DNA from: Novosphingobium silvae
GTDB taxonomy: Bacteria; Pseudomonadota; Alphaproteobacteria; Sphingomonadales; Sphingomonadaceae
Assembly: GCF_009856825.1 (NCBI RefSeq)
Contig: NZ_WVTD01000015.1
Coordinates: 1 to 64,000, forward strand
DNA length: 64,000 nt
Direction: 5' to 3'
Part shown: in pieces, positions 36,276 through 52,539 of the stretch
Layout: each line of letters starts with the position of its first letter
Position numbering within the stretch: the first letter of the stretch is position 1
Translations under genes and position numbers: made by a program
Notes under the pieces: generated by a model
What the model saw: only the letters and a program-made list of their open reading frames with translations
Databases searched by the model: none
Told to the model about the DNA's origin: nothing

Positions 36276-36341
36276 CTGTCCAACAGATTCAAGGCGAACG
36301 GCCCGTCAGGGTACGAATCGTCCCGAAGGGAGAGGAAGCGA

Positions 36342-36422
36342 ATGACAGAGTCATTTCGTTGCACATGCCCGCGACGCCGGGGTGTTCCGTGGCAGCAGCC
36401 AGCCGGGTGCCGTCCGCGATGA
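36342..36422 (+). CDS. short leader open frame overlapping the gluconate permease start
   Basis: An ATG with an excellent ribosome site (GAAGGGAGAGGAAG) opens a 26-residue frame, beginning MTESFRCTCPRRRGV, whose TGA overlaps the permease ATG at 36419 (ATGA). The permease itself has no comparable site. It may be a translated leader that couples ribosomes into the permease, or the true start region if a base is missing from the sequence. The peptide resembles nothing I know. Confidence 0.4.
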   Translation: MTESFRCTCPRRRGVPWQQPAGCRPR

Positions 36423-37765
36423 CGCCGGAGGACTATCGGCTCGTCCTGTCCGCCATCGCCGGCATTGCCCTGTCGATCTTTCTGATCGTCAAGGGACGCC
36501 TGCACCCTTTCATCGGCCTTCTGTGCGGGGCCTTCGTGGTCGGCCTCCTCGCCGGCATTCCGCTGTCCGATACGGCCGATGCGGTGGAGAAAGGCGCGGG
36601 GACCATCCTGGGCGGTACCGGGCTCGTCGTCGCGCTTGGTCTGGGGCTCGGCGCGATGCTGCAACTCTCCGACGGCGCTGGAGGCATAGCGCGGGCTGCG
36701 CTGCGTCTTTCCGGCGTTCGCGGCGCGCCCTGGGCAAGCCTGTTCACGGCGCTGCTCATCGGACTGCCGCTGTTCTTCGAGACCGGGCTGGTGCTGCTGT
36801 TGCCCATCGTCGCTTCGGCGGCCGCCGCGCTGCCGAGCGGGCAGGACGACGACACCGCCAAGCTGCGCCTCATGCTGCCCGCGCTCGCCGGTCTTTCGGT
36901 GGTCCATGCCCTGGTGCCGCCGCATCCAGGCCCGCTGCTGGCGGTCGACGCACTTGGCGCAAGCCTCGGTCTTACGCTGTTCTATGGCCTCATCGTCGGT
37001 ATCCCGACCGCGATCATTGCCGGGCCGGTGCTGGCACGCTTCACTGCCCCTGGAGTGCGGCTCAGCCCGCCCCCCTTGGCCGCGGTCACTGTCGAAGTTG
37101 CCGCGCCTCCGGTCGGCCGCGCCATGACGGCAGTGCTGCTCCCGGTGGTGCTGATCGCCGCGGGACAGGCGGTTTCGCTGATGCCGCCCGCTCTCGCCGG
37201 GTCGATGCAGTGGCTTGGCTGGGTCAGCGATCCCGTCGTGGCGCTGCTCATCGCTAACCTTGCAGCGCTTCCCCTGCTGTTCGGTCACCGGCTGCGGGAC
37301 AGCGGCATTCAGGGCGCGATATGGACCGAAGCCATGGCTCCCGCAGGCGGCATCCTCCTCGCGATCGGCGCAGGCGGAGCGCTCAAGCAGGTGCTTGTCA
37401 CGGCCGGCCTTTCCGATCTGCTGGTGCGTCTGGCTGGAGACGGCGCGATCTCGCCCCTGCTGCTTGCCTGGGGCGTTTCGGTGTGCATACGGCTTGCCAC
37501 AGGCTCGGCCACGGTGGCGACGATCACGACAGCGGGGGTCATGCAGGGGCTCGTCGCGACATCCGGCGTTGCACCGGAATGGATGGTCCTGGCAATCGGC
37601 GCGGGCTCGCTATTCTTCTCTCACGTCAACGATCCGGGCTTCTGGCTGGTCAAGAGCTACCTCGGAACCGACATGCCGGGCACTTTCCGCACCTGGTCGG
37701 TCATGGAAACGGTTGTCGCGGTGGTGGGCCTGCTGCTTGTCCTTGCGGGCAGTTCCATCTTCTAA
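36419..37765 (+). CDS. GntP-family gluconate:H+ symporter
   Basis: Inner-membrane permease that brings gluconate, made in the periplasm, into the cytoplasm. About 12 hydrophobic segments fill 448 residues. Family motifs include RLHPFIGLLCGAFVVGLLAG near 27, GLPLFFETGLVLLLPI, VHALVPPHPGPL, LATGSATVATITTAG and FFSHVNDPGFWLVK, all typical of GntP/GntT. The ATG at 36419 gives an N-terminus (MTPEDYRLVLSA) that starts right at the first membrane segment. Longer versions from 36359 would begin with TTG. It heads a permease-regulator pair, facing gluconokinase. Confidence 0.92.
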   Translation: MTPEDYRLVLSAIAGIALSIFLIVKGRLHPFIGLLCGAFVVGLLAGIPLSDTADAVEKGAGTILGGTGLVVALGLGLGAMLQLSDGAGGIARAALRLSGVRGAPWASLFTALLIGLPLFFETGLVLLLPIVASAAAALPSGQDDDTAKLRLMLPALAGLSVVHALVPPHPGPLLAVDALGASLGLTLFYGLIVGIPTAIIAGPVLARFTAPGVRLSPPPLAAVTVEVAAPPVGRAMTAVLLPVVLIAAGQAVSLMPPALAGSMQWLGWVSDPVVALLIANLAALPLLFGHRLRDSGIQGAIWTEAMAPAGGILLAIGAGGALKQVLVTAGLSDLLVRLAGDGAISPLLLAWGVSVCIRLATGSATVATITTAGVMQGLVATSGVAPEWMVLAIGAGSLFFSHVNDPGFWLVKSYLGTDMPGTFRTWSVMETVVAVVGLLLVLAGSSIF

Positions 37766-37808: not shown

Positions 37809-38486
37809 ATGAACCAGGAGCGACTTTCCGACCATGCCTATGCAGGCATCGTCGAGATCATAAATTCGCGCGATCTGGAAGTGGGCGCACGCCTGCCGTC
37901 GGAAGCAAGACTGGCGGAGATGTTCGGCGTGTCGCGCGCGATCGTGCGCGAGGCGCTGGTCCGCCTGGCCTCCGATGGAATCACCGAGGCCCGGCGCGGT
38001 GCCGGGTCCTTCGTGAAGAGCCGCCCCTCCGAACGTCTGGCCGCGTTCGTTCCCGCATCCGAGCTGCCGTCGACTTTGGGCAGCTACGAAGTGCGCTTCG
38101 TGCTCGAAGCGGAAGCGGCGCGGCTTGCCGCCACGCGCCGCACCCCGCAGGAGATGGCCTACGTGGAGGAAGGGCTGGAGCTTCTGCGCGACGCCCTGCT
38201 CTCGAACGCGCCTGCCCATGCCGAAGACATGGACCTGCACCGGCGCATCGCGGTGGCGACGGGCAATCCCGCCTTCCTGCAGGCGTTCGATGCGCTCTGG
38301 ACCGACGTCGAGAGGATCATGCGCGCCGGCGTGGACATCTCCCGCTCGCGTCCTCCTGAAGTGATCGCGACGATGCTCCACGAGCACGAGGTCATCGTGC
38401 GCGCCATCCGCGCGCAGGATGCGGAAGGAGCGGCGCTGGCGATGCGATGGCACTTGTGGGAAGGACGGCGCCGACTGATGCCCTGA
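37809..38486 (+). CDS. GntR-family regulator, FCD (FadR) subfamily
   Basis: A 225-residue repressor. The winged helix at about 8-75 contains LEVGARLPSEARLAEMFGVS and RAIVREALVRLASDGITEAR. The FCD ligand domain follows from about 90, with metal-ligand-type residues in MDLHRRIAVATGNP and HEHEVIVRAIRAQD. The ATG lies 43 bases after the permease stop, behind AAAGG, in the same transcript. It probably controls the permease and gluconokinase in response to gluconate or a phosphorylated product; the ATAAC/GTTAT repeats at 36252-36275 are candidate sites. Confidence 0.88.
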   Translation: MNQERLSDHAYAGIVEIINSRDLEVGARLPSEARLAEMFGVSRAIVREALVRLASDGITEARRGAGSFVKSRPSERLAAFVPASELPSTLGSYEVRFVLEAEAARLAATRRTPQEMAYVEEGLELLRDALLSNAPAHAEDMDLHRRIAVATGNPAFLQAFDALWTDVERIMRAGVDISRSRPPEVIATMLHEHEVIVRAIRAQDAEGAALAMRWHLWEGRRRLMP

Positions 38487-38492: not shown

Positions 38493-39044
38493 TCACTCGT
38501 CCCCGAGCCAGTGCAGCACCAAGTCGCGCAAGGCCTCGGGAGGCTCGTCGGTCGTCAGGGTAATCGCCGCTTCGCTTGCGACGGGGCGCTCCAGCGTGGC
38601 CAACTGGCTGTCGAGAAGGCTGGGAGGCATGTAGTGACCCGGGCGGTTGCCCACCCGCGCCAGCAGCCGCTCACGGCTGTTCTCGAGAAAGACGAAGCGA
38701 ACTCCTCCGCCTACAGCGTCGCGCAGACGGTCGCGGTAGGCAAGGCGCAGTGCCGAACACGCCACTACGGCGCCTCCATGATCGGCTGCGGTTGTCGCTG
38801 CGGCGTTTCCCAGCCGGTCGAGCCAGGGCCAGCGGTCGTCGTCGGTCAGGGCCTCGCCGCCCCGCATCTTCGCCACGGCCTCGGGGGAATGATACGCGTC
38901 GCCTTCAAGGAAGGGGTAGCCAAGCGCCTGCGACAGCAGCGCGCCCAACGTGGATTTGCCGCAGCCGCTCACCCCCATGACGATGACGGCGCGCAATGGC
39001 GACAGTGCGTGACCGGGAAGTACGGGCAAGTCGGCATCCTTCAT
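38493..39044 (-). CDS. gntK: gluconokinase (GntK)
   Basis: Phosphorylates gluconate to 6-phosphogluconate with ATP, the entry to the Entner-Doudoroff pathway. The P-loop is VMGVSGCGKST near residue 22. FLEGDAYHSPEAVAKMRGG binds gluconate, and CSALRLAYRDRLR and PGHYMPPSLLDSQLATLE are GntK signatures. The 183-residue length is usual. It is convergent with the GntR gene, six bases apart, so no terminator separates them and the two transcripts overlap. Confidence 0.94.
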   Translation of the reverse strand: MKDADLPVLPGHALSPLRAVIVMGVSGCGKSTLGALLSQALGYPFLEGDAYHSPEAVAKMRGGEALTDDDRWPWLDRLGNAAATTAADHGGAVVACSALRLAYRDRLRDAVGGGVRFVFLENSRERLLARVGNRPGHYMPPSLLDSQLATLERPVASEAAITLTTDEPPEALRDLVLHWLGDE

Positions 39045-39101: not shown

Positions 39102-39123
39102 CTACGACCTTTGTCGCAAGTGC
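39102..39123 (+). promoter_or_regulatory. 22-base motif shared with the next TonB receptor promoter region
   Basis: CTACGACCT-nn-GTnGnAAGTGC occurs here, 58 bases before the first helix-propeller gene, and again at 42229-42250 with 18 of 22 bases identical. CACTTG at 39092 and CAAGTG at 39117 also form an inverted repeat around it. A common regulator site is likely. Confidence 0.45.
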
Positions 39124-39181: not shown

Positions 39182-42100
39182 ATGATCAGACGCGGCGCTT
39201 TCATGGCAGTCATGCTCGTAGGCACGGCTCTGGCCTCGCCCGGAACATCTCTCGCGGCGGGAACCTCGGTCTTCCCCGTCGCGCCCGACGAGCCCACCGC
39301 AGTGACCGTGCGTGCGCCGGGAGACGGCAGAACGGACGCCACCGACGCCCTCCAGCAGGCTTTCGACAGCGCGCGTGACCGCACAGGCCATGGCATCGTC
39401 TTCCTGCCTTCCGGAACCTACCGCATCACCCGCACGCTCGTGGTGCCGGCCGGGGTCAGGGTCTACGGCATAGGCGCGACGCGCCCGACGATACTGCTCG
39501 GCCGGAGCACTCCCGGTTTCCAGAAAGGCGTGTCGACGATGATCGTCTTTGCAGGAGACGACCAGTACAACGTCGGCAAGGTTCCCGTGCCCGTGCCAAC
39601 GGTCGTTCCGCGCGACAAGGTGGTCCGCGACGCCAATTCCAGCACGTTCTACTCGGCGATGAGCAACGTCGACATCGAGATCGCCGAAGGCAACCCCGCT
39701 GCGGCCGGAGTGCGCTTCCGCCTCGCGCAGCACGCATTCCTCAGCCACATGGATTTCCGGCTGGGGAGCGCTTTTGCAGGCGTGTACCAGGCCGGCAACG
39801 TGATCGAGAACGTCCACTTCCACGGTGGCCGCTACGGCATCGTAACGGAGAAGACCTCCCCCGCATGGCAGTTCACGCTGCTCGATTCTACGTTCGAGGG
39901 TCAGCGCGACGCCGCAATTCGCGAGCACGAAGCGGGGCTGACCCTGGTGAACGTCTCTATCAGCGACACGCCGGTGGGCATCGAGGTGGATCGTGGATAC
40001 GGTGATTCCCTCTGGGGCAAGGACGTGCGCTTCGAGAACGTCAGCCGGGCGGCAGTCGTGATCTCGAACGAGCGGAATGCCTTCACCCAGATCGGCTTCG
40101 AAAACGCGCTTGCAAGCGAAACCCCGGTCTTTGCGCGTTTCCGCGACAGCAGGAGCACCGTCGAGGGTAAGGGCGCCGCCTACAAGGTATCCGCCTTCTC
40201 CTATGGCATCGAGGTAGCGCATGGTCGCTCGACCGGAGAATATGCGACTCAGGCCGAGATCGAGCCGCTCTCGGCCATGCCCGCCCCCCGCGCTCCGGCC
40301 ATCCGCGACCTTCCGACTGTGGCGGACTGGGTGAACGCCCGCACTGTGGGTGTGGCCGGCAACGGCAAGGCGGACGACACCGCCGCCATCCAGCGCGCGA
40401 TCGATACGAACAGGGTGCTCTACTTCCCGACCGGGTTCTACAAGGTCACCGCACCCTTGAAGCTGCGTTCCGACAGCATTCTCATCGGGCTGCATCCGGC
40501 GATCACGCAGTTCTATGTCCCCGACGAGAACCCCGGCCATTCCGGCGTCGGCACGGTGGTGCCGATCGTCGAGAGCCCGCAGCGCGGCGACAACGTGCTT
40601 TCCGGGATCGGGCTGTTCACGGGCCGGGTCAATCCCCGTGCCGCCGCGCTCCTCTGGCGCTCGGGCGAGAACAGCCTGGTCGAGGACGTGAAGATCATGG
40701 GCGGCGGCGGAACACCGACCGCCGACGGCAAGCCGCTCGGCAGCATGAGCGCCCGCAGCGGAGATCCGGTCGCGGACGGTCGCTGGGATGCGCAATATCC
40801 CAGCATCTGGGTGACCGATGGCGGCGGCGGAACTTTCGCGGACGTGTGGAGCCCGAACACTTTCGCACAGGCAGGCTTCTATGTGACGAACACGAGCACA
40901 CCGGGCCATGTCTACGAGATGTCCGTCGAACACCATGCCCGCAACGAGTTCGTGCTCGACAACGTGCAGAACTGGGAGTTCCTCGCTCCCCAGACGGAGC
41001 AGGAGGTGGGAGACGGGCCGAACGCCGTTTCGCTCGAGATCCGCAACTCGCGCAATCTTCTGTTCGCCAACTATCACGCCTACCGCGTCACCCGCAGCTA
41101 CCATCCCGCTCGCAGCGCGGCGAAGCTGTACAACTCCAGCGACATCCGCTTCCGCAACGTCCACGTGAATGCGGAAAGCGGGTATGCCGCCTGTGACGAC
41201 GAAGGCTGCGGCACCTTCCTTCGCGCGAGCAAGTATCCCTTCGACAACGCGATCGAGGATGTGACGCGCAAGCTTTTCGTGCGGGAACGCGAGTTCGCGC
41301 GGCTGGACATCGGCCCCGTCGGAAACCCGGTCGCTCCCGAGGCTACGCGTCCGGCCACTAAGTTGGAGAAGGTGGCAGACGGCTTCTGGTCCATCTCCGG
41401 CGCGGCGACGGATGCGAAAGGTGCTCTCTACTTCATCGACAGGCGGTTCCAGCGCATTCACCGCTGGACCGATGCGAAAGGCCTGGAGATCGTTCGCGAT
41501 CACGCGCTGGATCCGGTGAACCTGGCAGTGGACGCATCGGGCCATCTCCTCGTCCTCTCCTCGCTCGGCACGAAAGGCAGCGTCTACTCGCTTGACCCGG
41601 CCGACCCCACCGACCGGATCACGATCATCCAGCCAACTCCCGCCCGGGCAAGACCGAAGGCGCGAACGCTCCTTCCAGTCAACTGGTGGATCAACGGCGA
41701 ATTTCGCGATCAGCTGGACCACGACACCTACGAGTTCACGACCCTTGCCGAAATGTTCGCACGCGATGCGGGTTCGAAGAAGGCGCGCGAATACGTCTCT
41801 CCCGATGGCAGCCTTGCGCTTCCGGCATTCCGTGTATGGCAGCAAGGGCCTGCGGACCACGTCGGATGGCGCTGGTCGAACAGCCTTAACGCGAACGGGC
41901 TTGTTGGCGGCAAGCCGGGAGAGCGGATGTTCGTGACCAATGCTTCCGAGAACGTCACCTACAGCGGGACGATCGGCTCTCTGGGCGCGCTTGGAAGCCT
42001 GAAGCCTTTCGCCGGCCGTGGAGGCGAAAGCGTGACGGTGGGCCAGGATGGGCGCGTCTTCATAGCCAACGGGCAGGTCTTCATCCATGCTCCCGACGGA

Positions 42101-42217
42101 CGCGAGATCGGGAGGATCGACGTACCCGAACGGCCCTTGCAGATCCTGTTCGGCGGGCAGGATGGGCGTACGCTTTTCATCCTCACGCACCACGCGCTCT
42201 ACACCGCGAAACCGTGA
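39182..42217 (+). CDS. secreted beta-helix/SMP-30-like propeller fusion protein (copy 1)
   Basis: A 1,011-residue protein with a Sec signal (about 1-26). Two pectate-lyase-3/GH55-like beta-helix units follow, each starting with the same type of motif: GDGRTDATDALQQAFD near 47 and GNGKADDTAAIQRAID near 393. Such twin helices resemble GH55 exo-beta-1,3-glucanases and GH28-related proteins. From about 727 to the end comes an SMP-30/gluconolactonase-like propeller (DAKGALYFIDRRFQRIHRW). A helix-lyase/hydrolase joined to a lactonase-like propeller suggests release and immediate processing of a sugar, but no catalytic residue is assigned and the substrate is unknown. A paralogue with the same three parts is at 45385-48435. 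GAGGGGGAGACGGCG before the ATG supplies the ribosome site. Confidence 0.8.
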   Translation: MIRRGAFMAVMLVGTALASPGTSLAAGTSVFPVAPDEPTAVTVRAPGDGRTDATDALQQAFDSARDRTGHGIVFLPSGTYRITRTLVVPAGVRVYGIGATRPTILLGRSTPGFQKGVSTMIVFAGDDQYNVGKVPVPVPTVVPRDKVVRDANSSTFYSAMSNVDIEIAEGNPAAAGVRFRLAQHAFLSHMDFRLGSAFAGVYQAGNVIENVHFHGGRYGIVTEKTSPAWQFTLLDSTFEGQRDAAIREHEAGLTLVNVSISDTPVGIEVDRGYGDSLWGKDVRFENVSRAAVVISNERNAFTQIGFENALASETPVFARFRDSRSTVEGKGAAYKVSAFSYGIEVAHGRSTGEYATQAEIEPLSAMPAPRAPAIRDLPTVADWVNARTVGVAGNGKADDTAAIQRAIDTNRVLYFPTGFYKVTAPLKLRSDSILIGLHPAITQFYVPDENPGHSGVGTVVPIVESPQRGDNVLSGIGLFTGRVNPRAAALLWRSGENSLVEDVKIMGGGGTPTADGKPLGSMSARSGDPVADGRWDAQYPSIWVTDGGGGTFADVWSPNTFAQAGFYVTNTSTPGHVYEMSVEHHARNEFVLDNVQNWEFLAPQTEQEVGDGPNAVSLEIRNSRNLLFANYHAYRVTRSYHPARSAAKLYNSSDIRFRNVHVNAESGYAACDDEGCGTFLRASKYPFDNAIEDVTRKLFVREREFARLDIGPVGNPVAPEATRPATKLEKVADGFWSISGAATDAKGALYFIDRRFQRIHRWTDAKGLEIVRDHALDPVNLAVDASGHLLVLSSLGTKGSVYSLDPADPTDRITIIQPTPARARPKARTLLPVNWWINGEFRDQLDHDTYEFTTLAEMFARDAGSKKAREYVSPDGSLALPAFRVWQQGPADHVGWRWSNSLNANGLVGGKPGERMFVTNASENVTYSGTIGSLGALGSLKPFAGRGGESVTVGQDGRVFIANGQVFIHAPDGREIGRIDVPERPLQILFGGQDGRTLFILTHHALYTAKP

Positions 42218-42228
42218 TGCCGAGGTAT

Positions 42229-42250
42229 CTACGACCTAAGTGGTAAGTGC
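42229..42250 (+). promoter_or_regulatory. second copy of the shared 22-base motif
   Basis: CTACGACCT-nn-GTnGnAAGTGC as at 39102-39123, located 94 bases before the TonB receptor ATG. It contains a repeat AAGTGGTAAGTG. Confidence 0.45.
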
Positions 42251-42344
42251 GGTCAGAGCAGTCCCAAGGTAACGTCGTGACAATGCCGGAAGCGGCGCGG
42301 CCGAGTCCGAAAAACGGGCGGCCGGAGGTTGAAGGGGAAGGATC

Positions 42345-45311
42345 ATGAAGAGCATCGCGACTATCGACCGCCACCGGTCGGGCGTAAGCTTGGCAGCGCT
42401 GGCGGCTGTCATTCTCGCAGGATCGGCACATGCTCAGGAAGCATCGCCACCAGCCCCCGCTGCTGCGCAGGAGGAGCAGGAAGTACCCTCCGTGTCGGAC
42501 CAGCGGGCGGCGGAGATCGTCGTCACCGGTTCGCGCATCACCTCCAGCGGCTTCAACGCGCCCACGCCCACCACGGTAATCGGCGAAGCGCAGATCGCCG
42601 CCAATGCGCAGCCCAACATCTTCAACACGATCGCGCAGCTCCCTTCGCTTCAGGGCTCGACGGGTGCGGCCACCGGCACGTTCAGCACCTCCAGCGGCTC
42701 GCAGGGCCTCTCCTCGTTCTCGCTGCGGGGTCTCGGCACGATCCGTACCCTGACCCTGCTCGATGGCCAGCGCGTCGTAGGCGCCAACGTGACCGGCGTG
42801 CCCGACATCAGCCTGTTCCCTCAGTTGCTGGTAAAGCGCGTCGACGTGGTAACCGGCGGCGCCTCGGCCTCCTATGGCTCGGATGCGGTCGGCGGCGTGG
42901 TGAACTTCATCACCGACACCAAGTTCGAAGGCTTCAAGGGCAACGTGCAAGGCGGCATTACCCGCTACAACGACAACGAGCAGGTCCTGGTCCAGGGCGC
43001 CTGGGGCAAGTCGCTTGGCCGCTTCCACGTGATCGTCAGCGGCGAATACGACCACGAGGAAGGCGTCGGCCCCGGCAACTTCGGCACCGACCTCGCCGGC
43101 AGCCGCGACTGGTACCGTGCCAGCACGCTGGTCAACACCGGCGTGCTGGACAGCACCAATCCGCAGTACCTCTATCGCGACTACGCCCAGCCCTACCAGT
43201 ATGCCAAGTATGGCCTCATCAACGCGGGTCCCTTGCAGGGCATCGCTTTCGATCCGAGCGGCCGGCCCTACAACTTCAACTACGGATCGAACGGCGTTCC
43301 GGCAGGCAATGCGGCGGGTGACGTGACCGGCTGCTATGTCGGCTTCTGCGTCGGCGGCGACATGTCGGGCCATGTCGGATCGGGCACGTCCCTGCAGTCT
43401 GCGCTCAAGCGCATCAACGGCTATACCCGCCTCAGCTACGAGTTTGCGGACGACAACGAGCTTTATGCCACCGTCAACATCGCGCAGGTGAAGACCAACA
43501 ACCAGCCGAACCCGGGCGCTGCACTCAGCAACCTCACCGTCCAGTGCGCCAATCCCTTCGTGCCGGACCTGGTGCAGGCTGCCTGCGCGGACGCAGGCAT
43601 CACCAGCTTCCGCTATGGCCTCAGCAACGCCATCCTGCCCAACATCAAGGTCTTCACCGACCGCAAGCAGTACCGCTTCGTGGGCGGCGCCAAGGGCAAG
43701 TTCGAGGCGGCGGGCACGGCGTGGAACTATGACGCCTATTACGAACACGGTGTCAACATCACCGACATCAACGTGCGCAACATCCTGCTCAGCCGGCGCT
43801 ACACCGCCGCGATCAACGCAATCGAGCTGGACGGCGCGATTGTCTGCGCGGATGCGACTGCCCGGGCGAACGGCTGCCAGCCGATCAACATCTTCGGCGC
43901 CGTTACGCCCTCGTCGGCGGCGCTGGCCTATCTCCAGCCGGAGAACGGGCCGTTCCAGCACACCAAGCAGACGCAGGACGTTGCCAGCGTCAACATCTCG
44001 GGCTCGCCCTTCGAATCCTGGGCCGGCCCGGTCTCGATCGCGTTCGGCGGCGAGTACCGGCGCGAGTTCTACCGGGTCAACGCCGACCCTTATGGCGCAG
44101 GCGTATCATCGACGAGCCCCTACGACGACGAGTACCCCGCCGACCCGCTGCTGCTTGCCGACGGCAACAACTGGTACGCCGGCAACTACAAGAACGGTCG
44201 CGGCAAGTACGACGTCGTCGAGGGCTTCCTCGAAGTCGACCTGCCCATCCTCGACTCAGAAGGGGCGGGCCGGGCCAACCTCAACGGCGCGGCGCGCGTC
44301 ACGCGCTACAGCACCTCGGGTACGATCTGGTCGTGGAAGGTGGGAGGAACCTGGGACACCCCGCTCGACAGCCTGCGCCTGCGGGCGGTGACCTCACGCG
44401 ATGTTCGCGCCCCGAACCTGTCGGAACTCTTCGCCGCGCCCACCACGACAACGGTCCCGAACTTCACCGATCCGTTCACCAATACGCAGGTGCTGATCCT
44501 GCAGAACACCATTGGCAATACCGCGCTCAAGCCGGAAGTCGCGCGCAATACCGAGGTGGGCATCGTGCTGGCACGCCCCTCGTGGCTCCCGGGCCTCAGC
44601 CTCTCGTTCGACTACTACGACATCAAGCTCGATGACGTGATCTCGAGCCTGACTGCCCAGCAGATCGTCAATCTCTGCTTCCAGGGCGACCCGACGACCT
44701 GCAGCGCGTTCGACCTCAACAACCCGAACGGCCCGAACTACGTCAACGTGCAGGCATTCAACCTCGCCTCGATCAAGACCAGCGGCTTCGACATCGAGGC
44801 GAGCTACCAGTGGCAGAACCCGCTCGGCCTCGACGGCAGCCTGACCCTGCGCGCCCTGGCGACCCATGTGCGCAAGTTCGTGACCGACACGGGTCTTCCC
44901 GGCACGATCCCGGTCGACACCGCCGGCAACAACACCGGCGCCACGCCCGACTGGAAGTGGCTGGCGATCCAGACCTACGAGAACGATCACTTCAGTCTGA
45001 CCGTGCAGGAACGCTGGTTCTCGGACGGGACCTTCGGCAACCAGTACATCGAGTGCCGGCCCGGCAGCTGCCCCGTGTCGACGGTCAACAATCCGACGAT
45101 CGACAACAACCACATGGACGGCGCGTTCTACCTCGACATCGGCGGTTCGTACAACGTGACCTCGCAGATCCGGGCCTACTTCAAGGTCGACAACGTGTTC
45201 GACCGCGATCCAACGCCCTCGCCGCAGACCAACACCGGACTGGACGTGAACCCCTCCCTGTACGACACTCTGGGACGGACATATCGTGCAGGCATCCGCT
45301 TCAATTTCTGA
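42345..45311 (+). CDS. TonB-dependent receptor between the two helix-propeller genes
   Basis: A complete 988-residue outer-membrane importer. The Sec signal ends at SAHAQE (about 1-31). The TonB-box-like AAEIVVTGSRI is near 55, the plug runs to about 190 (FNTIAQLPSLQG, FSLRGLGTIRTLTLLDGQRV, GGASASYGSDAVGGVVNF), and the barrel ends in RAGIRFNF. It belongs to the same subtype as the broken receptor at 153-2600. Flanked by the two paralogous helix-propeller proteins, it is the probable uptake route for their product. AAGGA precedes the ATG, and a strong terminator follows the stop. Confidence 0.93.
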   Translation: MKSIATIDRHRSGVSLAALAAVILAGSAHAQEASPPAPAAAQEEQEVPSVSDQRAAEIVVTGSRITSSGFNAPTPTTVIGEAQIAANAQPNIFNTIAQLPSLQGSTGAATGTFSTSSGSQGLSSFSLRGLGTIRTLTLLDGQRVVGANVTGVPDISLFPQLLVKRVDVVTGGASASYGSDAVGGVVNFITDTKFEGFKGNVQGGITRYNDNEQVLVQGAWGKSLGRFHVIVSGEYDHEEGVGPGNFGTDLAGSRDWYRASTLVNTGVLDSTNPQYLYRDYAQPYQYAKYGLINAGPLQGIAFDPSGRPYNFNYGSNGVPAGNAAGDVTGCYVGFCVGGDMSGHVGSGTSLQSALKRINGYTRLSYEFADDNELYATVNIAQVKTNNQPNPGAALSNLTVQCANPFVPDLVQAACADAGITSFRYGLSNAILPNIKVFTDRKQYRFVGGAKGKFEAAGTAWNYDAYYEHGVNITDINVRNILLSRRYTAAINAIELDGAIVCADATARANGCQPINIFGAVTPSSAALAYLQPENGPFQHTKQTQDVASVNISGSPFESWAGPVSIAFGGEYRREFYRVNADPYGAGVSSTSPYDDEYPADPLLLADGNNWYAGNYKNGRGKYDVVEGFLEVDLPILDSEGAGRANLNGAARVTRYSTSGTIWSWKVGGTWDTPLDSLRLRAVTSRDVRAPNLSELFAAPTTTTVPNFTDPFTNTQVLILQNTIGNTALKPEVARNTEVGIVLARPSWLPGLSLSFDYYDIKLDDVISSLTAQQIVNLCFQGDPTTCSAFDLNNPNGPNYVNVQAFNLASIKTSGFDIEASYQWQNPLGLDGSLTLRALATHVRKFVTDTGLPGTIPVDTAGNNTGATPDWKWLAIQTYENDHFSLTVQERWFSDGTFGNQYIECRPGSCPVSTVNNPTIDNNHMDGAFYLDIGGSYNVTSQIRAYFKVDNVFDRDPTPSPQTNTGLDVNPSLYDTLGRTYRAGIRFNF

Positions 45312-45338
45312 CTTGATCGACGATACCCCCCACGAACT

Positions 45339-45368
45339 GTCCCGGCCTTGCGGCCGGGACATTTTTTG
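45339..45368 (+). terminator. rho-independent terminator after the TonB receptor
   Basis: GTCCCGGCC and GGCCGGGAC form a perfect nine-base-pair stem around TTGC, followed by ATTTTTTG. It lies only 17 bases before the next start codon, so it may work as an attenuator for the second helix-propeller gene. Confidence 0.85.
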
Positions 45369-45384
45369 CTTCGGAGTGAACGAC

Positions 45385-48300
45385 ATGATGCGCGGCCTGA
45401 TCGGAACCAGCGCGGCGGTGCTGGCCTTGTTGCTCGCACAGGCCGCATCCGCCTCCCCTTCCGTTTACACCACCGCACCGGACGAGCCTTCGGCCGTCAC
45501 AGTTTCGGCTATGGGGGACGGGCGCGCGGACGATACCGCGGCCGTCCAGCAAGCGATCGACACGGCTGCGGCCAAGGGCGGCGGCGGCATCGTCTTCCTG
45601 CCTGCCGGCACGTACCGGATCAGCCGCACCCTGTTCCTCTGGCCGGGCGTCCGCATCTTCGGCGTGGGCGAGAAGCGGCCCGTCATCGTGCTTGGCGCAA
45701 GGACACCCGGGTTCCAGAAAGGGGTGGGCCATATGCTGGTCTTCGCGGGATCGCCGCGTGAACGCGACCCAAAGGACAAGCGCGAGATCGCCTTCCCTCC
45801 GCCCGGCATCGTGCCGGCCACGAAGGAGGTGGCAGACGCCAACCCCGGCACGTTCTACTCCGCGCTGGGCAACATCGATTTCCGGATCCTCGACGGCAAC
45901 CCGGCCGCCACCGCCATCCGCTTCCACTCCGCCCAACACAGCTTCGTCAGCCATGTGGATTTCGACATCGGCTCCGGGCTCGCAGGGCTTTACCACGTCG
46001 CAAACGAAGCGGAAGACCTGCACTTTCGCGGCGGACGCTATGGCATCCTTGCCGAGAAGCCCTCGCCCGCATGGCCCTTCGCGCTTGTCGATGCCACTTT
46101 CGAAGGACAGCGCGACGCTGCCATCCGCGAACACGAGGCCGGGCTGACCCTGCTCAACGTGTCCATCCGCAACACCCCCGTGGGTATCGAGATCGACCGC
46201 GGCTATGGCGACTGGCTCTGGGGCCAGGACGTGCGTTTCGAGAATGTCTCCAAGGCAGGGGTGATCATCTCGAACGAGAGGAACGTCTACACCCAGATCG
46301 GCTTCCAGAATGTGCTGGCGACGAACACGCCGGTCTTCGCACGCTTTCGCGAAAGCGGGAGGACAGTCCCCGGCAAGGGAGGCACGTACAAGGTTTCCTC
46401 GTTCACGCACGGGCTGACGCTGCCGGCGATGGGCCGCATGGGAGAATACCGCACGCAAGTGGAGGCCGGGCCGCTCGGCGCCCTGCCCGGCCCTTCCGCC
46501 CCTGCCATCCGGCCCCTCCCGCCGGTCTCCGAGTGGGTCAGCGTCCGCACGCTCGGCGCCAAGGGCGATAACCGGACGGACGACACCGCCGCCATCCAGA
46601 AGGCGATCGACACCCACAAGGTCGTCTACCTTCCCGCCGGCTTCTACGTGGTCAGCGAGACGCTGCGGCTGCGGCCGGACACGGTGCTGGTCGGCCTCCA
46701 TCCCAGCCTGTCGCGCATCGTACTGCCGGACGGCACGCCGGCATGGCAGGGCGTTGGTGCGCCGAAAGCGCTCGTCGAAAGCGCCAGCGGCGGTGATGCC
46801 ATCGTGGCGGGGATCGGGCTCGACACCGGCGGCATCAATCCGCGCGCCACCGCGCTCCTGTGGAAGGCGGGCGCGAACTCGATGGTCAACGACGTCAAGT
46901 TCCAGAACGGCCATGGCACGAACCGCTTCGACGGCACGCGCATCGATCCGTACAACAACAACGGCACCGGCGATCCCGACGCCGCCAAACGCTGGGACGG
47001 CCAGTACGCCAGCCTCTGGGTCACGCAGGGCGGGGGCGGCACATTCGCCAACATCTGGAGCCCCAGCACCTTCGCCCACCCCGGCATCCTGATCTCCGAC
47101 ACGCGTACACCCGGGCGTCTGATCCAAGCCTCCGTGGAGCATCACGTAAGAACCGAGATCGGGCTCAATCGCGTTCAGAACTGGGAGCTGCTCGCGCCCC
47201 AGACCGAAGGCGAGGCAGGCGAAAGCGGCGACGCGGTGGCGCTGGAGATCCGCAATTCGAGCAACATCCTCGTCGCCAACTTCCACGGCTATCGCGTCAC
47301 CCGTACGCGCAAGCCCGCGCCGGCGGCCGTGACGCTGTACAACTCGCACGACATTCGATTCCGCAACGTTCACGTGAACGGCGAAAGCGGCCTTGGCACC
47401 TGCGACGAGAACGGCTGCGCTACTTTCCTGCGGCTCACCAAGTTCCCCTTCGACAATGCCATCCGCGACGTGACCCACGGGCTGGACGTGCGTGAACGCG
47501 AGTTTGCGGTGCTCGACGTGATCGGGAAACCCGAACCCGTCGCGGCATCGACTTTCCAGGGAGCCAGGGTGAAAAAGCTGGCCGACGGCTTCCACTCGGC
47601 CGGCGGCGGCGCGGTGGACGCCTCAGGCAAGCTCTACTTCATCGACCGGCACTTCCAGCGCATCTGGAGCTGGTCGGACGAAGGCAGGCTGGAGATCGTG
47701 CGCGATGCAGCGCTCGATCCCGTCAACCTGTCGGTAGACGCCTCCGGCAACCTGCTCGTGCTCTCGTCTTTCGGACGCAACGGCACGGTCTACAGCCTGA
47801 AACCGGGGACACCCGACACTGAACTCACGGTCATCGCTCCGACGGCGAGGGGCAGGCGGAACGCAGCCACCGTTATGCCGGTGAACTGGTGGAACAACGG
47901 CGAGTTCAAGGATCAGCTGGACTTCAAGACGTACGAGTTCACGACGCTCTCCGAGATGTTCGCCCGCGACATGGCGGTGCCCAAGGCGCAGGAGTATGTC
48001 TCACCCGATGGTAGCCTCGCGCTCCCCGCGTGGCGCGTCTTCGCCCAGGGTCCCGCCGATCACCGCGGCCTGCGCTTCTCGGATTCGCTCGACACCTATG
48101 GCTTCGTCCAGGGCCGAGCGGGTGAGCGTGTCTACGTCACCAACGGCTCGGAAAACCGGACCTACAGTGGCAAGGTCGGCGCGGGCGGCGCGCTCACCGA
48201 TCTCAAGGTCTTTGCGGATCGCGGCGGCGAAGGAGTTGCCTCGGACCCGCAGGGACGCGTCTACGTCGCCAATGGACAGGTCTTCGTCTATTCCCCTCAA

Positions 48301-48435
48301 GGGCAGGAGATCGGCCGCATCGACGTGCCCGAACGTCCGCTACAACTGGTGTTCGGCGGCAAGGACCGCCAAACGCTGTTCATCCTCACCCATCACGCGC
48401 TTTACGCGGCACGCATCGACCACGGACCTGAATGA
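45385..48435 (+). CDS. secreted beta-helix/SMP-30-like propeller fusion protein (copy 2)
   Basis: A 1,016-residue paralogue of the protein at 39182-42217. It has a Sec signal (about 1-23, ending ASASPS), twin beta-helix units starting at GDGRADDTAAVQQAID (near 45) and GDNRTDDTAAIQKAID (near 394), and the C-terminal propeller from about 729 (DASGKLYFIDRHFQRIWSW). Long identical stretches remain, such as EGQRDAAIREHEAGLTL and RIDVPERPLQ, so the duplication is fairly recent but not identical, arguing for different linkage preferences. The ATG at 45385 is used: GGAGTG lies eight bases before it, and any longer start would run into the terminator hairpin. The stop overlaps the ThuA-domain gene (ATGA). 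Confidence 0.8.
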   Translation: MMRGLIGTSAAVLALLLAQAASASPSVYTTAPDEPSAVTVSAMGDGRADDTAAVQQAIDTAAAKGGGGIVFLPAGTYRISRTLFLWPGVRIFGVGEKRPVIVLGARTPGFQKGVGHMLVFAGSPRERDPKDKREIAFPPPGIVPATKEVADANPGTFYSALGNIDFRILDGNPAATAIRFHSAQHSFVSHVDFDIGSGLAGLYHVANEAEDLHFRGGRYGILAEKPSPAWPFALVDATFEGQRDAAIREHEAGLTLLNVSIRNTPVGIEIDRGYGDWLWGQDVRFENVSKAGVIISNERNVYTQIGFQNVLATNTPVFARFRESGRTVPGKGGTYKVSSFTHGLTLPAMGRMGEYRTQVEAGPLGALPGPSAPAIRPLPPVSEWVSVRTLGAKGDNRTDDTAAIQKAIDTHKVVYLPAGFYVVSETLRLRPDTVLVGLHPSLSRIVLPDGTPAWQGVGAPKALVESASGGDAIVAGIGLDTGGINPRATALLWKAGANSMVNDVKFQNGHGTNRFDGTRIDPYNNNGTGDPDAAKRWDGQYASLWVTQGGGGTFANIWSPSTFAHPGILISDTRTPGRLIQASVEHHVRTEIGLNRVQNWELLAPQTEGEAGESGDAVALEIRNSSNILVANFHGYRVTRTRKPAPAAVTLYNSHDIRFRNVHVNGESGLGTCDENGCATFLRLTKFPFDNAIRDVTHGLDVREREFAVLDVIGKPEPVAASTFQGARVKKLADGFHSAGGGAVDASGKLYFIDRHFQRIWSWSDEGRLEIVRDAALDPVNLSVDASGNLLVLSSFGRNGTVYSLKPGTPDTELTVIAPTARGRRNAATVMPVNWWNNGEFKDQLDFKTYEFTTLSEMFARDMAVPKAQEYVSPDGSLALPAWRVFAQGPADHRGLRFSDSLDTYGFVQGRAGERVYVTNGSENRTYSGKVGAGGALTDLKVFADRGGEGVASDPQGRVYVANGQVFVYSPQGQEIGRIDVPERPLQLVFGGKDRQTLFILTHHALYAARIDHGPE

Positions 48436-49199
48436 TGCGCAAGATCGTTCGCATGCTGCTGGCTCTCCTGGCCCTTGCCGCTCCCGCAAGCGCCTGGGCC
48501 GACCCGCAGTACAAGCTGCTCGTCCTCGCGATCCCCAACAAGTACCACTACGAGTACATTCCGGTGGCACGCGACAGCCTGGAACGCCTGGCCAGGCTCC
48601 ACGAGTTCGAGTTGGTATGGACGAACAGGCCCGAGGTCTTCGAGCAGGACCTCAAGCCCTACGCGGCGGTCCTGTTCCTCAACACGCCGGGAGAGGAGCT
48701 CAACGCGACCCAGCGCGCGGGCTTTGAGGCCTACATGCGCGCCGGCGGGAACGCGATGGTCGTTCACCGTGCGCTGATCATGCCGAACAAGGACTGGCCC
48801 TGGTACGAGAAGATGGTGGGGCGCAGCTTCGTCATCCATCCGATGCTGCAGACCGGCGTGGTCACCGTGGAGGACAGCGGCTTCCCCGCAACCTTCGGCC
48901 TGCCCTCCCCCTGGCTCTGGAGCGACGAATTCTACGTGACCGCGAACCCGCACAATATCGACATCACGCCGGTGCTGGGCGTGGACGAAAGCAGCTATGA
49001 TCCCACGCTCATCTGGCCCGGCCAGATTGCAAGGCCGATGGGGAAGCACCACCCCATCGCTTGGCACCATCAATGGGAGAGGGGCCGCGTATTCGTCACC
49101 ACCCTGGGGCACAACGTCGAGATGTACCGCGACCCTCAATACCTCGCGCACCTGATGGGCGGGATCTACTGGACCGCCACGGGACGAGGTCGCCGCTGA
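48432..49199 (+). CDS. secreted ThuA-domain protein
   Basis: A 255-residue protein with a Sec signal (about 1-23, ASAWAD) and a ThuA/glutamine-amidotransferase-like fold: YKLLVLAIPNKYHYEYIP at the start, AVLFLNTPGEELNATQ, FVIHPMLQTGVVTVED, and the C-terminal signature HHPIAWHHQWERGRVFVTTLGH. ThuA proteins accompany many sugar-utilisation loci; keto-sugar or glycoside metabolism has been proposed, but the reaction is poorly known. It is translationally coupled to the second helix-propeller gene by a four-base overlap, which ties it to that system. Confidence 0.85.
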   Translation: MMRKIVRMLLALLALAAPASAWADPQYKLLVLAIPNKYHYEYIPVARDSLERLARLHEFELVWTNRPEVFEQDLKPYAAVLFLNTPGEELNATQRAGFEAYMRAGGNAMVVHRALIMPNKDWPWYEKMVGRSFVIHPMLQTGVVTVEDSGFPATFGLPSPWLWSDEFYVTANPHNIDITPVLGVDESSYDPTLIWPGQIARPMGKHHPIAWHHQWERGRVFVTTLGHNVEMYRDPQYLAHLMGGIYWTATGRGRR

Positions 49200-49299: not shown

Positions 49300-50907
49300 T
49301 CAAGCGCTGCCGAGCGCCCGATATCGAAAGTCCCGCAGCTTCGCTTGCCCCGATCCGGCCACGTAGACGCCGAAGCGAAGGCTGAGGAAGCCGCCGAAAA
49401 CGTTATGGTGGATGCCCGAGACTTCCATCCGCGTGCCGTGCCGCTGCCAGGTCCGCCCTTCATCATAGGAGTAGTGCCAGGTGACGACGTTCTCCTCGTT
49501 GGTGACGCGCAGGCGCACGCTGCGGGCCTTGTGCGCCACCGCCGCCCAGGGAAGGTCCTCGGAGTACTCGTAGATTTTCAGCTTTTCGGGCGTGAAGCCC
49601 AGGCCCACGAATGCTTTGTGGTTGTAGAACAGGAGGATACCCGCCTCTCCATCACCCGTGAGATCGATGGAGATTTCCGCCCGATAGCTGCGATCTCCGA
49701 CGAGGCACGTCAGCGGCGAGGAATCGGCGGGCGAACTGCCGCTGGCGGTGATCGCCAGTGCGCCCGGTTCATAGCGCGCGCGGTCTGCCTCGCCGGACCT
49801 TGGCGCATGGAAGCTCCACTGCACGCCGAAGCGGTCACGGCTGAAGTCGTCCGACAGTGCCGGCGCGGAGGCGCTTGGTACGCCGGCCTTCGGCTTGGGC
49901 AGCGGTAGGGAGAGATCGCCCCCCTTGGCGCGGAACCAGCCATCGGCCGTCCACTCGATCGGCTCCAGCAGCGTCTGGCGGCCAAGCGTGCGCATGCCGT
50001 TCTCGTAGCCGTGGTAGACCATCCACCAGTCACCCGCCGGGCCTTCCACCAGAGTCGCATGGCCGCGCGACCACCACGGCTCCTCCACGCTGACGGTGCG
50101 CACCAGCGGGTTATGCGGGCAGTGCTCCCAAGGGCCATGGATCGAGCGCGATCTTGCGGCGATGACCATGTGCCCGGTGACCGGGCCCGCCGTCCCGCCG
50201 ATTGCCGTCACGAGGTAGAACCACTCGCCTCGGCGCAGCAGCTTGGGCCCTTCGGGCGCGAAGTTCTCCACCACCCAGTCATCCGGATAGCGCCATGGGT
50301 CGTACGCCTTTTCCAGCGTGCCATCCGTGGCAAGGCCATCGTCGGTCAGGCGGACCTTGCGGATGCCATTGGTGAAGAGGTAGCGCTTGCCGTCCTCGCC
50401 GACGATGTGCCCGGGATCGATGCTGCCTTCGATCTTGAGATCGATAGGTTCGCTCCACGGCCCGGAGATGTCGTCCGCCCAGATCACGAAGATCGACCAG
50501 CCCTCGCCCTTCGGGTCGGCGGGGATGTAGATGAAATAGCGGCCATCGTGCTTGACCAGGTCTACAGCCCAGATCGTGCCGAGATTCTGATGCAACGCAG
50601 GCCCAACCGGGGCCCAGTTGACGAGATCGGTCGAGCGCCAGATCACCAGACCCGGATAGGAATCGAAGGACGAAAACGTCATGTAGTAGACGCTGCCATC
50701 CTTGAGGATCGTGGGATCGGGGTGGTCCCCCGCCACGATGGGATTGCGGTAGAAACCGTTGCCGAGGTCGGCCTTGCGCTGCCCCTCGGCGCCCGAGCCC
50801 CACTTTGGCGCGGGCGTGGCTCGACCTTTCGTGAGCGCATTCGCCAGCGAAGGCACGGCTGCTCCGGCAAGCGCGCCCTGGAACATGGTGCGGCGTGTGA
50901 TGCTCAT
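49300..50907 (-). CDS. GH43 beta-xylosidase/alpha-L-arabinofuranosidase with C-terminal beta-sandwich
   Basis: Predicted to trim xylose or arabinose from hemicellulose oligosaccharides. SITRRTMFQGALAGAAVPS is a twin-arginine signal. The five-bladed GH43 propeller carries the general base D64 in DHPDPTI, D164 in SIDPGHI and the acid E219 in FAPEGPKLL. From about 345 a GH43_C2-type sandwich follows. The start is the ATG at 50907, with AGGAAG upstream; a TTG further upstream is unlikely. It lies ten bases after the GH39 stop, in one transcript. Xylosidase and arabinofuranosidase activity cannot be separated from sequence alone. Confidence 0.88.
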   Translation of the reverse strand: MSITRRTMFQGALAGAAVPSLANALTKGRATPAPKWGSGAEGQRKADLGNGFYRNPIVAGDHPDPTILKDGSVYYMTFSSFDSYPGLVIWRSTDLVNWAPVGPALHQNLGTIWAVDLVKHDGRYFIYIPADPKGEGWSIFVIWADDISGPWSEPIDLKIEGSIDPGHIVGEDGKRYLFTNGIRKVRLTDDGLATDGTLEKAYDPWRYPDDWVVENFAPEGPKLLRRGEWFYLVTAIGGTAGPVTGHMVIAARSRSIHGPWEHCPHNPLVRTVSVEEPWWSRGHATLVEGPAGDWWMVYHGYENGMRTLGRQTLLEPIEWTADGWFRAKGGDLSLPLPKPKAGVPSASAPALSDDFSRDRFGVQWSFHAPRSGEADRARYEPGALAITASGSSPADSSPLTCLVGDRSYRAEISIDLTGDGEAGILLFYNHKAFVGLGFTPEKLKIYEYSEDLPWAAVAHKARSVRLRVTNEENVVTWHYSYDEGRTWQRHGTRMEVSGIHHNVFGGFLSLRFGVYVAGSGQAKLRDFRYRALGSA

Positions 50908-50917
50908 CCCTGGCTTC

Positions 50918-52483
50918 CTACTGGCCTGCAGGCTCAAGCGTGACGAGCGCGACGTCGTTGCTGCGCATCGACACCTCGACCGTGGCTGCGCCGTCGGCGC
51001 CCACGCGGACCCGCTTCTCCTGCTCGGGCCTGTCCGCCGTCTCGCGCTGGAGCTGGGACAATTGCGCGTCGCTCAGCGAGGCAGGCATGCCCATGTCAAT
51101 GTAGGACGAGAGCGGATCGTTCAGCCGGTACCCGGTCTTGCGCACCTGCAGCCGATAGCTGCCCCGGGGCATGTGGGTGAACCGGAACGTGACTTTCTGA
51201 CTTGCCGTCGCCGGAACCTGCCGCGTGTAGAACGGCTTGTTGCTGAGGTTCTGCACGGGCTGCTGGAAATCCCAGACCAGCGCGGTCACACGCTTGCCGT
51301 CGCGCGCCGCCATGGCCTGCTCGTCCCCTGTCGCAAGCGCCTGACCACGAATCTCGTTCAGGTACTTGTAGGCAAACCACGCGGGCTTGCGGATGCCTTC
51401 ACGGTTCATCAGGCCGAAACCGCCGTGGAACGGCGTGGGCGGCGGCCCCGGTTCCTCGAACAGGTCGGTATAGGTCCAGTAGCTCATGCCCTGCGCCAGG
51501 CCTTGCGTCTGCTTGAGCTTGGAGAGGATGTAAGGCGCGCTGATATAGCTGTCGTGCACGAAGTCACGCGGCGTGTAGCTGGTGCTCCACTCCGTGAAGA
51601 AGAGCGGCACACCCGGGAAAGCCGAAGCCTCGATCTCGCCGCGAACCTTGCGAACATCGCCGACGATCGCATCGCGCGAAGGTGACAGCTTGGTGTCCTG
51701 CTTGCCCTCTTCATCCAGGAAGCCGCCTTCCACGCCGTAGGTGTGGGTCGTCACGAAATCGACCGGCAGCTTGTTGTCCGACGCGTACTTCAGGAACTCC
51801 GGCACCCAGGCCGCACCGGCAGTTGCCGGACCGCCGACGCGCAAGGCAGGGTCGATCGCCTTGATGGTGCGAGCGGTGTTGGCGTAGAGTTCGAAGTAGG
51901 CCTTCTGGTCTGCCTTTTCCCAGAAGCCGTCGAGGTTCGGCTCGTTCCAGAGCTCGAAGTACCAGCTGCGCACTTCATCAACGCCGTAGCGGCCGCGCAC
52001 ATGGGTGACGAAGGCATTCACGAGATCGCGCCACATCGCCGGGTCGGGGTGCGACGTGTTGCCCTTCCAGTAGAACAGCTGCTGTTCCGAGGTGCGCATC
52101 ACCGCCGGTGTCCAGCCCAGTTCGACGAACGGTCGGATGTGCTTGGCAAGCAGGCCATCGTACAGCTGGTCGAGCCTGGTCCAGTCATAGACGATCTTGC
52201 CGTCCACCTTCCGCACAGTGCCGAGCACGTCATGGAAGACATCGTGGAAGCGGATGTAGCGAAAGCCCAGCTCGTCCGAAGCGACTTTGAGCTGGGCCTG
52301 GCTGTCATCGCGGATCAGCGTGCCCGGATAGTCCGAACCGACCGAGAGATCGAAGAAGCGATCGACGGGACCCGTCGGCGCTGCGACATCGATAGCGATC
52401 TCGCGCAAGGGCGAGGCTTGGGCGGCCAACGCGGGCTGCGCGATCGCGGCCGCTGCAGCAATAACTGCTCCGATCTTCTGCAT
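50918..52483 (-). CDS. GH39 beta-xylosidase
   Basis: Releases xylose from xylo-oligosaccharides. A Sec signal (about 1-21, ALAAQA) is followed by a GH39 barrel with acid/base E181 in ELWNEPNLDG and nucleophile E298 in LFFTEWSTSY, then a C-terminal beta-sandwich from about 400. The 521-residue length is normal for GH39 xylosidases. It has its own promoter with an overlapping LacI-type operator and leads the GH39-GH43 pair. Iduronidase, the other GH39 activity, is unlikely in this context. Confidence 0.9.
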   Translation of the reverse strand: MQKIGAVIAAAAAIAQPALAAQASPLREIAIDVAAPTGPVDRFFDLSVGSDYPGTLIRDDSQAQLKVASDELGFRYIRFHDVFHDVLGTVRKVDGKIVYDWTRLDQLYDGLLAKHIRPFVELGWTPAVMRTSEQQLFYWKGNTSHPDPAMWRDLVNAFVTHVRGRYGVDEVRSWYFELWNEPNLDGFWEKADQKAYFELYANTARTIKAIDPALRVGGPATAGAAWVPEFLKYASDNKLPVDFVTTHTYGVEGGFLDEEGKQDTKLSPSRDAIVGDVRKVRGEIEASAFPGVPLFFTEWSTSYTPRDFVHDSYISAPYILSKLKQTQGLAQGMSYWTYTDLFEEPGPPPTPFHGGFGLMNREGIRKPAWFAYKYLNEIRGQALATGDEQAMAARDGKRVTALVWDFQQPVQNLSNKPFYTRQVPATASQKVTFRFTHMPRGSYRLQVRKTGYRLNDPLSSYIDMGMPASLSDAQLSQLQRETADRPEQEKRVRVGADGAATVEVSMRSNDVALVTLEPAGQ

Positions 52484-52535: not shown

Positions 52536-52539
52536 GAAG

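Follow-up and report, generated by a model that had tools for sequence, protein, structure and literature searches.

The window analyzed here is a stretch of 64,000 nucleotides from Novosphingobium silvae (assembly GCF_009856825.1, contig NZ_WVTD01000015.1, positions 1 to 64,000). It encodes two exported proteins in which a twin β-helix is followed by a C-terminal β-propeller; we refer to such proteins as helix-propeller proteins (HPs) and to the two window copies as HP-A and HP-B. We found a real enzyme pair, for which no described function was found and which recurs together with a TonB-dependent receptor (TBDR) and with gluconate genes linked by a predicted operator. This is a stronger finding than the association with a ThuA-family protein, which a previous reading of the window, made from its letters and open reading frames without database searches (the sequence-only reading), had taken for the partner of the pair. 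The set probably constitutes a GntR-controlled carbohydrate-acquisition module built around the TBDR and the GH55-like HPs, with the product of the oligosaccharide being burned as gluconate. Its main features are the following.

35850-36134, minus strand: small LuxR/GerE-type helix-turn-helix (HTH) regulator, divergent from gntP (43/83 loci)
36273-36289, unstranded: palindrome CTGT-N3-ACAG in the gntP promoter (palindrome survey of promoters)
36419-37765, plus strand: GntP gluconate:H+ symporter (TIGR00791, 345.4 bits; cut-off 292.75)
37809-38486, plus strand: FCD-type GntR regulator (Pfam GntR and FCD)
38493-39044, minus strand: gluconokinase GntK, divergent from HP-A (TIGR01313, 165.7 bits; cut-off 113.75)
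39103-39118, unstranded: predicted operator TACGACCTTTGTCGCA in the divergent gntK/HP-A promoter (pattern match)
39182-42217, plus strand: HP-A, 1011 amino acids (aa), GH55-like twin β-helix and degenerate SMP-30-like propeller
42230-42245, unstranded: predicted operator copy with one mismatch, upstream of the TBDR gene (pattern match)
42345-45311, plus strand: TBDR, 988 aa, Pfam TonB plug and barrel (homolog in 61/83 loci)
45385-48435, plus strand: HP-B, GH55-like twin β-helix and degenerate SMP-30-like propeller

The helix-propeller pair

The coordinates and Pfam matches agree with the sequence-only description of two secreted paralogs of about 1010 residues that flank one TBDR. Over almost the entire chain, HP-A and HP-B share 61% identity, and both exceed the Pfam cut-offs for Pect-lyase_RHGA_epim, in two stretches, and for SGL. 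The start of HP-B was taken at the ATG at 45385; the mechanical open reading frame begins with the GTG at 45286. Read by eye, the N termini of HP-A, TBDR, HP-B, and the ThuA protein carry Sec-type signals. No third close HP copy was detected in the same genome at E ≤ 0.001, the sole extra match being confined to 70 residues (3e-6).

An AlphaFold2 model of HP-B, generated from an alignment of 47 rows, reached a pLDDT of 88.2 and a pTM of 0.90. Residues 28-713 of this model superimposed on the GH55 enzyme PcLam55A (3eqn) with a Z score of 32.7 (606 aligned residues, rmsd 2.7), as compared to 26.1 for the best single-helix structure, and the whole catalytic unit forms a twin right-handed β-helix, which is the GH55 fold. 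The top four rows of a Foldseek search with the model were GH55 chains, and a profile of the 47 homologs matched the GH55 entries 5m5z (1e-20), 3eqn (1.6e-16), and 8jhh (2e-10) in the Protein Data Bank (PDB). Thus, both structure comparison and profile matches support the GH55-like helix that the sequence-only reading had suggested. The assignment as a GH28 or pectin enzyme was rejected, as the NCBIfam rhamnogalacturonidase matches fell far below their cut-offs and the GH55 matches span the entire twin helix.

Residue conservation was counted in 116 aligned HP sequences of at least 850 aa (114 from 72 loci and the two window proteins), with the equivalent GH55 columns taken from HMMER alignments and the residues given in P0002 numbering. 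According to the available text on GH55 enzymes, the catalytic set includes the general acid E502, E480/H481, Q174, and W446 in SacteLam55A, and the general acid E614 in MnLam55A (PMC10637969); E502 is also named as the SacteLam55A general acid in PDB titles. The equivalents of the general acid (Glu610), of the catalytic-water pair E480/H481 (Glu587 and His588), and of the relay Q174 (Gln186) are each present in 116/116 sequences. The same holds for Trp560, which was paired by eye with W446 of subsite −1. HPs therefore have the twin β-helix and the catalytic Glu, Glu-His, Gln, and Trp in common with the GH55 glucanases PcLam55A (3eqn), CtLam55 (5m5z), MnLam55A (8jhh), and SacteLam55A (4pew). 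In contrast, they are only 14-23% identical to these enzymes over aligned residues, carry the additional C-terminal propeller, and are encoded in a TBDR/gluconate gene context.

The propeller, which was also folded on its own (pLDDT 87.5), is nearest to 3e5z (Z 18.6, 229 aligned residues, rmsd 3.6), followed by 3dr2 (18.2), both labeled as gluconolactonases, while other six-bladed propellers score Z 16-17. This fold match bears out the SMP-30-like propeller of the sequence-only reading, the six-bladed fold being shared with 3e5z, XC5397 (3dr2), and Caulobacter XylC (7plb) at Z 17.8-18.6. However, unlike these proteins, the HP propeller is fused behind a GH55-like domain and has lost the metal-binding and lactonase residues. 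The metal ligands of SMP-30 proteins are taken to be a Glu, the Asn of the NSPND and PNG motifs, and the Asp of PDG. Among the HPs, the blade-1 ligand stretch carries Glu or Asp in 0/116 sequences, the NSPND stretch is not kept, the PNG Asn is found in 1/116 at the HMMER-aligned column or 25/116 at an alternative column, and the metal Asp of PDG is changed to Glu in 116/116, with all these column matches stemming from a remote alignment that may be off by a residue or two. Apart from the Asp-to-Glu change, the lactonase ligands are thus missing, so that the processing of a released lactone by the propeller, which the sequence-only reading had put forward, finds no support. The propeller has the fold of a lactonase but not its active site, and it most likely serves as a binding or docking module. 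Its presence in 116/116 sequences is partly a matter of choice, as the set was selected at ≥850 aa; within this set, the lactonase fold has been kept after the loss of the lactonase site.

Gluconate genes and a predicted operator

The recurrence of the window genes was determined by tblastn with the window proteins in 83 loci, several of which belong to related strains or share a genome. Eighty were obtained from scans of family genomes and named genomes, and three were added; L104 and L108 are counted though they have no HP match over the length limit, while the HP-less L115 and L116 were left out. We found HP in 81 of these loci (two HP matches in 50), gluconokinase in 62, TBDR in 61, GntR in 48, the LuxR-type regulator in 43, and GntP in 42, and at least one of gntP, gntK, and gntR accompanied 65 of the 81 HP loci. 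Rarer partners were a secreted α/β-hydrolase (27), MocA (13), a 7-bladed lactonase (8), ThuA (7), and SMP-30 (1). The search for conserved synteny called for by the sequence-only reading thus retained the TBDR as a recurrent partner, showed ThuA to be rare, and brought out gntP, gntK, gntR, and luxR. Together, a recurrent TBDR, an exported glycan enzyme, a permease, a catabolic enzyme, and a regulator make up a TonB-linked carbohydrate locus, the co-regulation of which is suggested by the shared predicted operator.

The two gluconate proteins GntK and GntP of the window, which both exceed their NCBIfam cut-offs, are unique in the genome. GntK is its sole match to the TIGR01313 model, no second gluconokinase passes either NCBIfam cut-off there (one FGGY-type match reaches 151 versus 648.55), and GntP is the only match at E ≤ 1e-40. 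Across the family, a close GntP (≥60% identity) is present in 11 of 249 genomes; 10 of these are HP-positive, each with its gntP at the HP cluster (Fisher p 1.5e-13, kinship ignored). As an exception, in the HP-less L115 gntP-gntR adjoin a 7-bladed lactonase of PF10282.

A 16-bp palindrome, TACGACCWWKGTCGYR, is the consensus of 89 sites located before HP and TBDR genes and also precedes gntK. Its perfect core, CGAC-N4-GTCG, was found upstream of 63/130 HP, 56/64 gntK, and 26/61 TBDR matches and was absent from one base-shuffled set of upstream stretches; because the HP and gntK genes are mostly served by a common divergent region, their counts largely reflect the same sites. Scanning 1.72 Mb of locus sequence with a weight matrix gave 138 sites of at least 12 bits, with 107 before HP, TBDR, or gntK, another 9 before a secreted esterase, and a remainder that includes 13 inside genes. 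In the 4.57-Mb genome of the window, the pattern TRCGACYWWNGTCGYR has a single exact match, at 39103-39118 between gntK and HP-A.

When loci with a site of at least 15 bits were regarded as operator-positive, the 81 HP loci comprised 47 with both the operator and a local GntR, 17 with the operator only, 1 with GntR only, and 16 with neither. At the level of whole genomes, GntR was present in 8/8 tested operator-positive genomes (in 7 of them the HP locus used is without GntR) and in 0/6 operator-negative ones. These 14 genomes were chosen by hand (those of L050 and L058, of six loci from a single close Sphingomonas group, and of six loci that lack the operator) from a larger pool with 10 more operator-positive and 10 more operator-negative loci without a local GntR. 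A second palindrome, CTGT-N3-ACAG, occurs in 29/45 gntP promoters; among the HP-less loci, it is present in L115 and absent from L116. This second palindrome fits the FCD type of site, and a LuxR-type gene also travels with HP, so that GntR is connected to the TACGAC operator through the co-occurrence of GntR and operator. We infer from this co-occurrence that the FCD-type GntR may bind the operator of HP, TBDR, and gntK; such predicted binding would tie the HPs, the TBDR, and gluconokinase to one regulator.

The LuxR-type protein has sub-cut-off NCBIfam matches to the HTH end of NarL-type regulators. The accessory features of the cluster are as follows.

33699-34703, minus strand: stand-alone SMP-30/gluconolactonase with a twin-arginine-like N terminus (Pfam SGL, 141 bits)
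34700-35803, minus strand: GFO/IDH/MocA oxidoreductase with a twin-arginine-like N terminus (Pfam; 13/83 loci)
45338-45367, plus strand: terminator-like hairpin and T-run between TBDR and HP-B (sequence, read by eye)
48432-49199, plus strand: secreted ThuA-family protein, 255 aa (Pfam PF06283)

The stand-alone SMP-30 protein matches XC5397 gluconolactonase (3dr2) at E 5e-36 and has kept the EGP, NSPND, PNGLA, and PDG motifs. SMP-30 and MocA adjoin luxR-gntP-gntR in the window, L075, and L138, and in L137 and L139 SMP-30 lies near a second HP locus; the MocA protein scores below the cut-off of the D-xylose 1-dehydrogenase Gfo6 model. All 8 loci with a 7-bladed lactonase form one group of close loci. 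Thus, stand-alone lactonases are found near some clusters and are not part of the core. The sequence-only reading does not mention the hairpin. As it lies inside the supposed TBDR-HP-B-ThuA operon and no operator was found before HP-B, HP-B transcription may need read-through.

The start of the ThuA gene (48432) overlaps the stop of HP-B as ATGA, so the coupling noticed in the sequence-only reading is real. The protein reaches 174.7 bits against the PF06283 cut-off of 33.4 and is thus a clear member of the ThuA family (solved relative 4jqs), but it is a secreted protein, and its coupling to HP-B is seen in a minority of loci. Because it is present in only 7/83 loci, ThuA was ruled out as the partner that defines the system. 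We know of no function for secreted ThuA proteins.

Candidate routes to gluconate

In the reading we favor, the TBDR would import an oligosaccharide. The exported HP-A and HP-B would cleave it, either on the cell surface or within the periplasm, and the reaction would probably be an inverting hydrolysis of the exo type. Gluconate would enter the cytoplasm via GntP, would be phosphorylated by GntK, and would then follow the Entner-Doudoroff route. The FCD-type GntR would couple HP, TBDR, and gntK through the common 16-bp operator, the propeller would bind or dock, and lactone opening, where needed, would be left to separate lactonases.

Two described systems share parts of this layout. The CUT loci for TonB-linked carbohydrate scavenging, conserved in aquatic bacteria including alphaproteobacteria, likewise combine a TBDR with carbohydrate-utilization genes; as a difference from the HP module, the available text nowhere uses the words "gluconate," "GntR," or "lactonase" (PMC1790865). 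The ong cluster of Pseudoalteromonas prydzensis, as presented in the available text, handles C1-oxidized chitin through a TBDR, a periplasmic hydrolase, a permease, a kinase, and a regulator (PMC9537276). It has in common with the HP module the order of TBDR, periplasmic hydrolase, sugar-acid permease, kinase, and own regulator; however, it uses other families (β-hexosaminidase, SSS permease, KdgK, and a MurR/RpiR regulator), and the analogy is one of layout.

Several observations weigh against the proposed module. In the active site, the column of the GH55 relay Ser-198 holds Val or Ala in 113/116 HPs and Ser in one, with an invariant Asn two residues further on, the column of Tyr-505, which orients the general acid, holds Val or Ala in 106/116, and the loop that carries the Asp of subsite −1 appears by eye to be shortened. 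For these reasons the substrate need not be β-1,3-glucan, and, given the loss of the relay Ser and the orienting Tyr, we do not class HPs as canonical GH55 enzymes; with the GH55 core invariant and these two residues replaced, the chemistry looks kept and the pocket changed. None of gntP, gntK, and gntR is within reach in 16/81 HP loci, neither operator nor local GntR is present in 16/81, and the operator-less L033, L035, and L040 belong to genomes (G063, G217, and G110) whose other HP locus has GntR. When one mismatch is allowed, the operator pattern yields 29 rows in the genome and the reversed control yields 26, so no weight can be placed on the mismatch rows taken together. Many loci come from close strains, a kinship that neither Fisher's test nor the operator-GntR match takes into account. 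The outer neighbors (75 of 93 candidates within 1.3 kb were scanned) are heterogeneous, with the commonest families at 6/75, and name no substrate. Last, stand-alone lactonases are rare near HP, with SMP-30 in 1/83 loci and the 7-bladed type in 8/83.

A possible alternative, to which we give less credence, is that HPs are ordinary exo-β-glucanases that release glucose; a PQQ membrane glucose dehydrogenase (e.g., 16610-19000) would oxidize it in the periplasm and GntP would import the gluconate, so that the gnt genes would serve general periplasmic glucose oxidation and not the HP substrate itself. This would agree with the retained GH55 active-site core, with the PQQ_membr_DH match over the cut-off in the window and two further matches in the same genome, and with the GH3 β-glucosidases beside HP in L095 and L097. 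However, among the 10 family genomes in which HP and GntP are linked, 6 have no PQQ membrane dehydrogenase match at E ≤ 1e-100 (2/10 exceed the cut-off), and the conserved core contains no oxidase, with MocA in 13/83 loci and other glucose oxidases not searched for. Because of these six genomes, an aldonate-ended oligosaccharide such as a C1-oxidized plant glucan keeps its place among the candidates, although we consider it rather unlikely. HPs would free gluconate from it directly, and the degenerate propeller would recognize the gluconate end. The recurrent set, consisting of a gluconate permease, kinase, and regulator with no conserved oxidase or glucose transporter, would suit such a substrate, and the order of steps would parallel the available description of the ong cluster for oxidized chitin (PMC9537276), a precedent that makes an aldonate end a reasonable option by analogy. 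Against it, no AA10 lytic polysaccharide monooxygenase (LPMO) was found in the genome, other LPMO families not being searched for. A dedicated pathway for C1-oxidized glucan, in which the GH55-fold pair would cut off gluconate, the metal-less propeller would read the gluconate or lactone end, and one GntR operator would join them to gluconokinase with the permease alongside, appears a shade more doubtful.

Far less credible is a two-step enzyme in one chain, as favored by the sequence-only reading, with the helix freeing a lactone or sugar, the propeller hydrolyzing it as a lactonase, and ThuA acting as a pathway partner. The propeller does have the SMP-30 fold in the 116 length-selected proteins, and in L119, from outside the class, ThuA likewise adjoins HP, but the lactonase ligands are missing from the propeller and ThuA is confined to the 7/83 loci mentioned above.

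In a literature search, no title or abstract start described the helix-propeller fusion, the operator, or the gluconate link, most subscription papers being beyond its reach; no assigned function was found, in line with the sequence-only impression that no characterized pathway has this set. If the GntR-controlled gluconate module is correct, sphingomonads, caulobacters, and a few Burkholderiales would own an unnoticed route, almost complete in itself, that leads from a receptor in the outer membrane to gluconate, and the predicted operator and two old paralogs make its inducer and regulon directly testable. Should the substrate have aldonic ends, the module would help to explain the bacterial fate of oxidized oligosaccharides left by oxygenases. 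One paper reportedly treats fungal cellobionic acid. A full bacterial pathway for an oxidized oligosaccharide is described for chitin, according to the available text (PMC9537276).

Distribution and neighboring genes

HP relatives were found in 15/249 family, 2/385 class, and 3/398 phylum genomes, with the window's own genome counted each time. A scan of named genomes, which detects close relatives only, gave at least 62 loci, mostly from Sphingobium, Novosphingobium, Sphingomonas, and Caulobacter, with others in Phenylobacterium and Burkholderiales (three records). A quick maximum-likelihood tree of the 116 proteins places HP-A and HP-B in separate clades, each with Caulobacter and Sphingomonadales, next to a further Sphingomonas clade; thus, the two forms are old or were transferred together. 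That the two copies are not redundant is thus supported as ancient paralogy only; they may also act on different linkages, as the sequence-only reading suggested. Four plasmid records carry HP (Sphingobium, two Sphingomonas, and Asticcacaulis), three of them labeling it "glycosyl hydrolase family 28-related" and the fourth being without annotation. HP relatives were found in 0/28 candidate viral-contig stretches.

Some loci deviate from the window in their gene content. In L119 (6763-16810; genome G887), outside the class of the window, HP, esterase, ThuA (68% identical), GntP (39%), TBDR, and GntK are grouped, a hint that the module may have moved from one class to another. L078 (7158-14192) and 7 similar loci contain HP, gntK, a secreted esterase, MocA, and the 7-bladed lactonase, with the operator also before the esterase, whose relatives are BD-FAE/Abhydrolase_3 proteins (Pfam); in L137 and L139, from two genomes of this group, GntR and GntP sit with a second HP elsewhere. 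L117 (6005-16957; relative L089) has an HP without gluconate genes. Its neighbors are NHL propellers, a PQQ-domain protein, a TIM barrel resembling xylose isomerase, and what is, as judged by eye from a cluster mate, probably a carboxylesterase; the HP of L117 and L089 perhaps represents a different use of the same enzyme. In two family genomes without GntR, a 719-residue β-helix protein (L045, 6440-8596), possibly another glycan enzyme, is encoded beside HP.

On both sides of the cluster, at 19011-33247 and 49300-56460, the window carries a gene set resembling a xyloglucan or hemicellulose locus. It comprises two GH35/42-like proteins with DUF5597, a GH31 with PA14, a GH74-like BNR protein, an esterase, and a second TBDR, followed by GH43, GH39, GH1, and GH31; the GH74-like call is our own reading of the BNR/Vps10 repeats. 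The 83 HP loci contain GH35-like in 6 cases, GH43 in 5, GH31b in 4, GH31a in 3, GH1 in 2, and GH39 in 1. The HP module was therefore rejected as a xyloglucan system, and the hemicellulose genes, being rare across HP loci, were treated as a neighboring locus. Elsewhere in the window, three consecutive open reading frames of the α-amylase family, the first with CBM48, occupy 3193-9435 and could, as we presume, form a TreX/TreZ/TreY-like trehalose or glycogen set. At 13079-16505, the gene for a KaiC-type double ATPase precedes that for a PAS-HWE histidine kinase.

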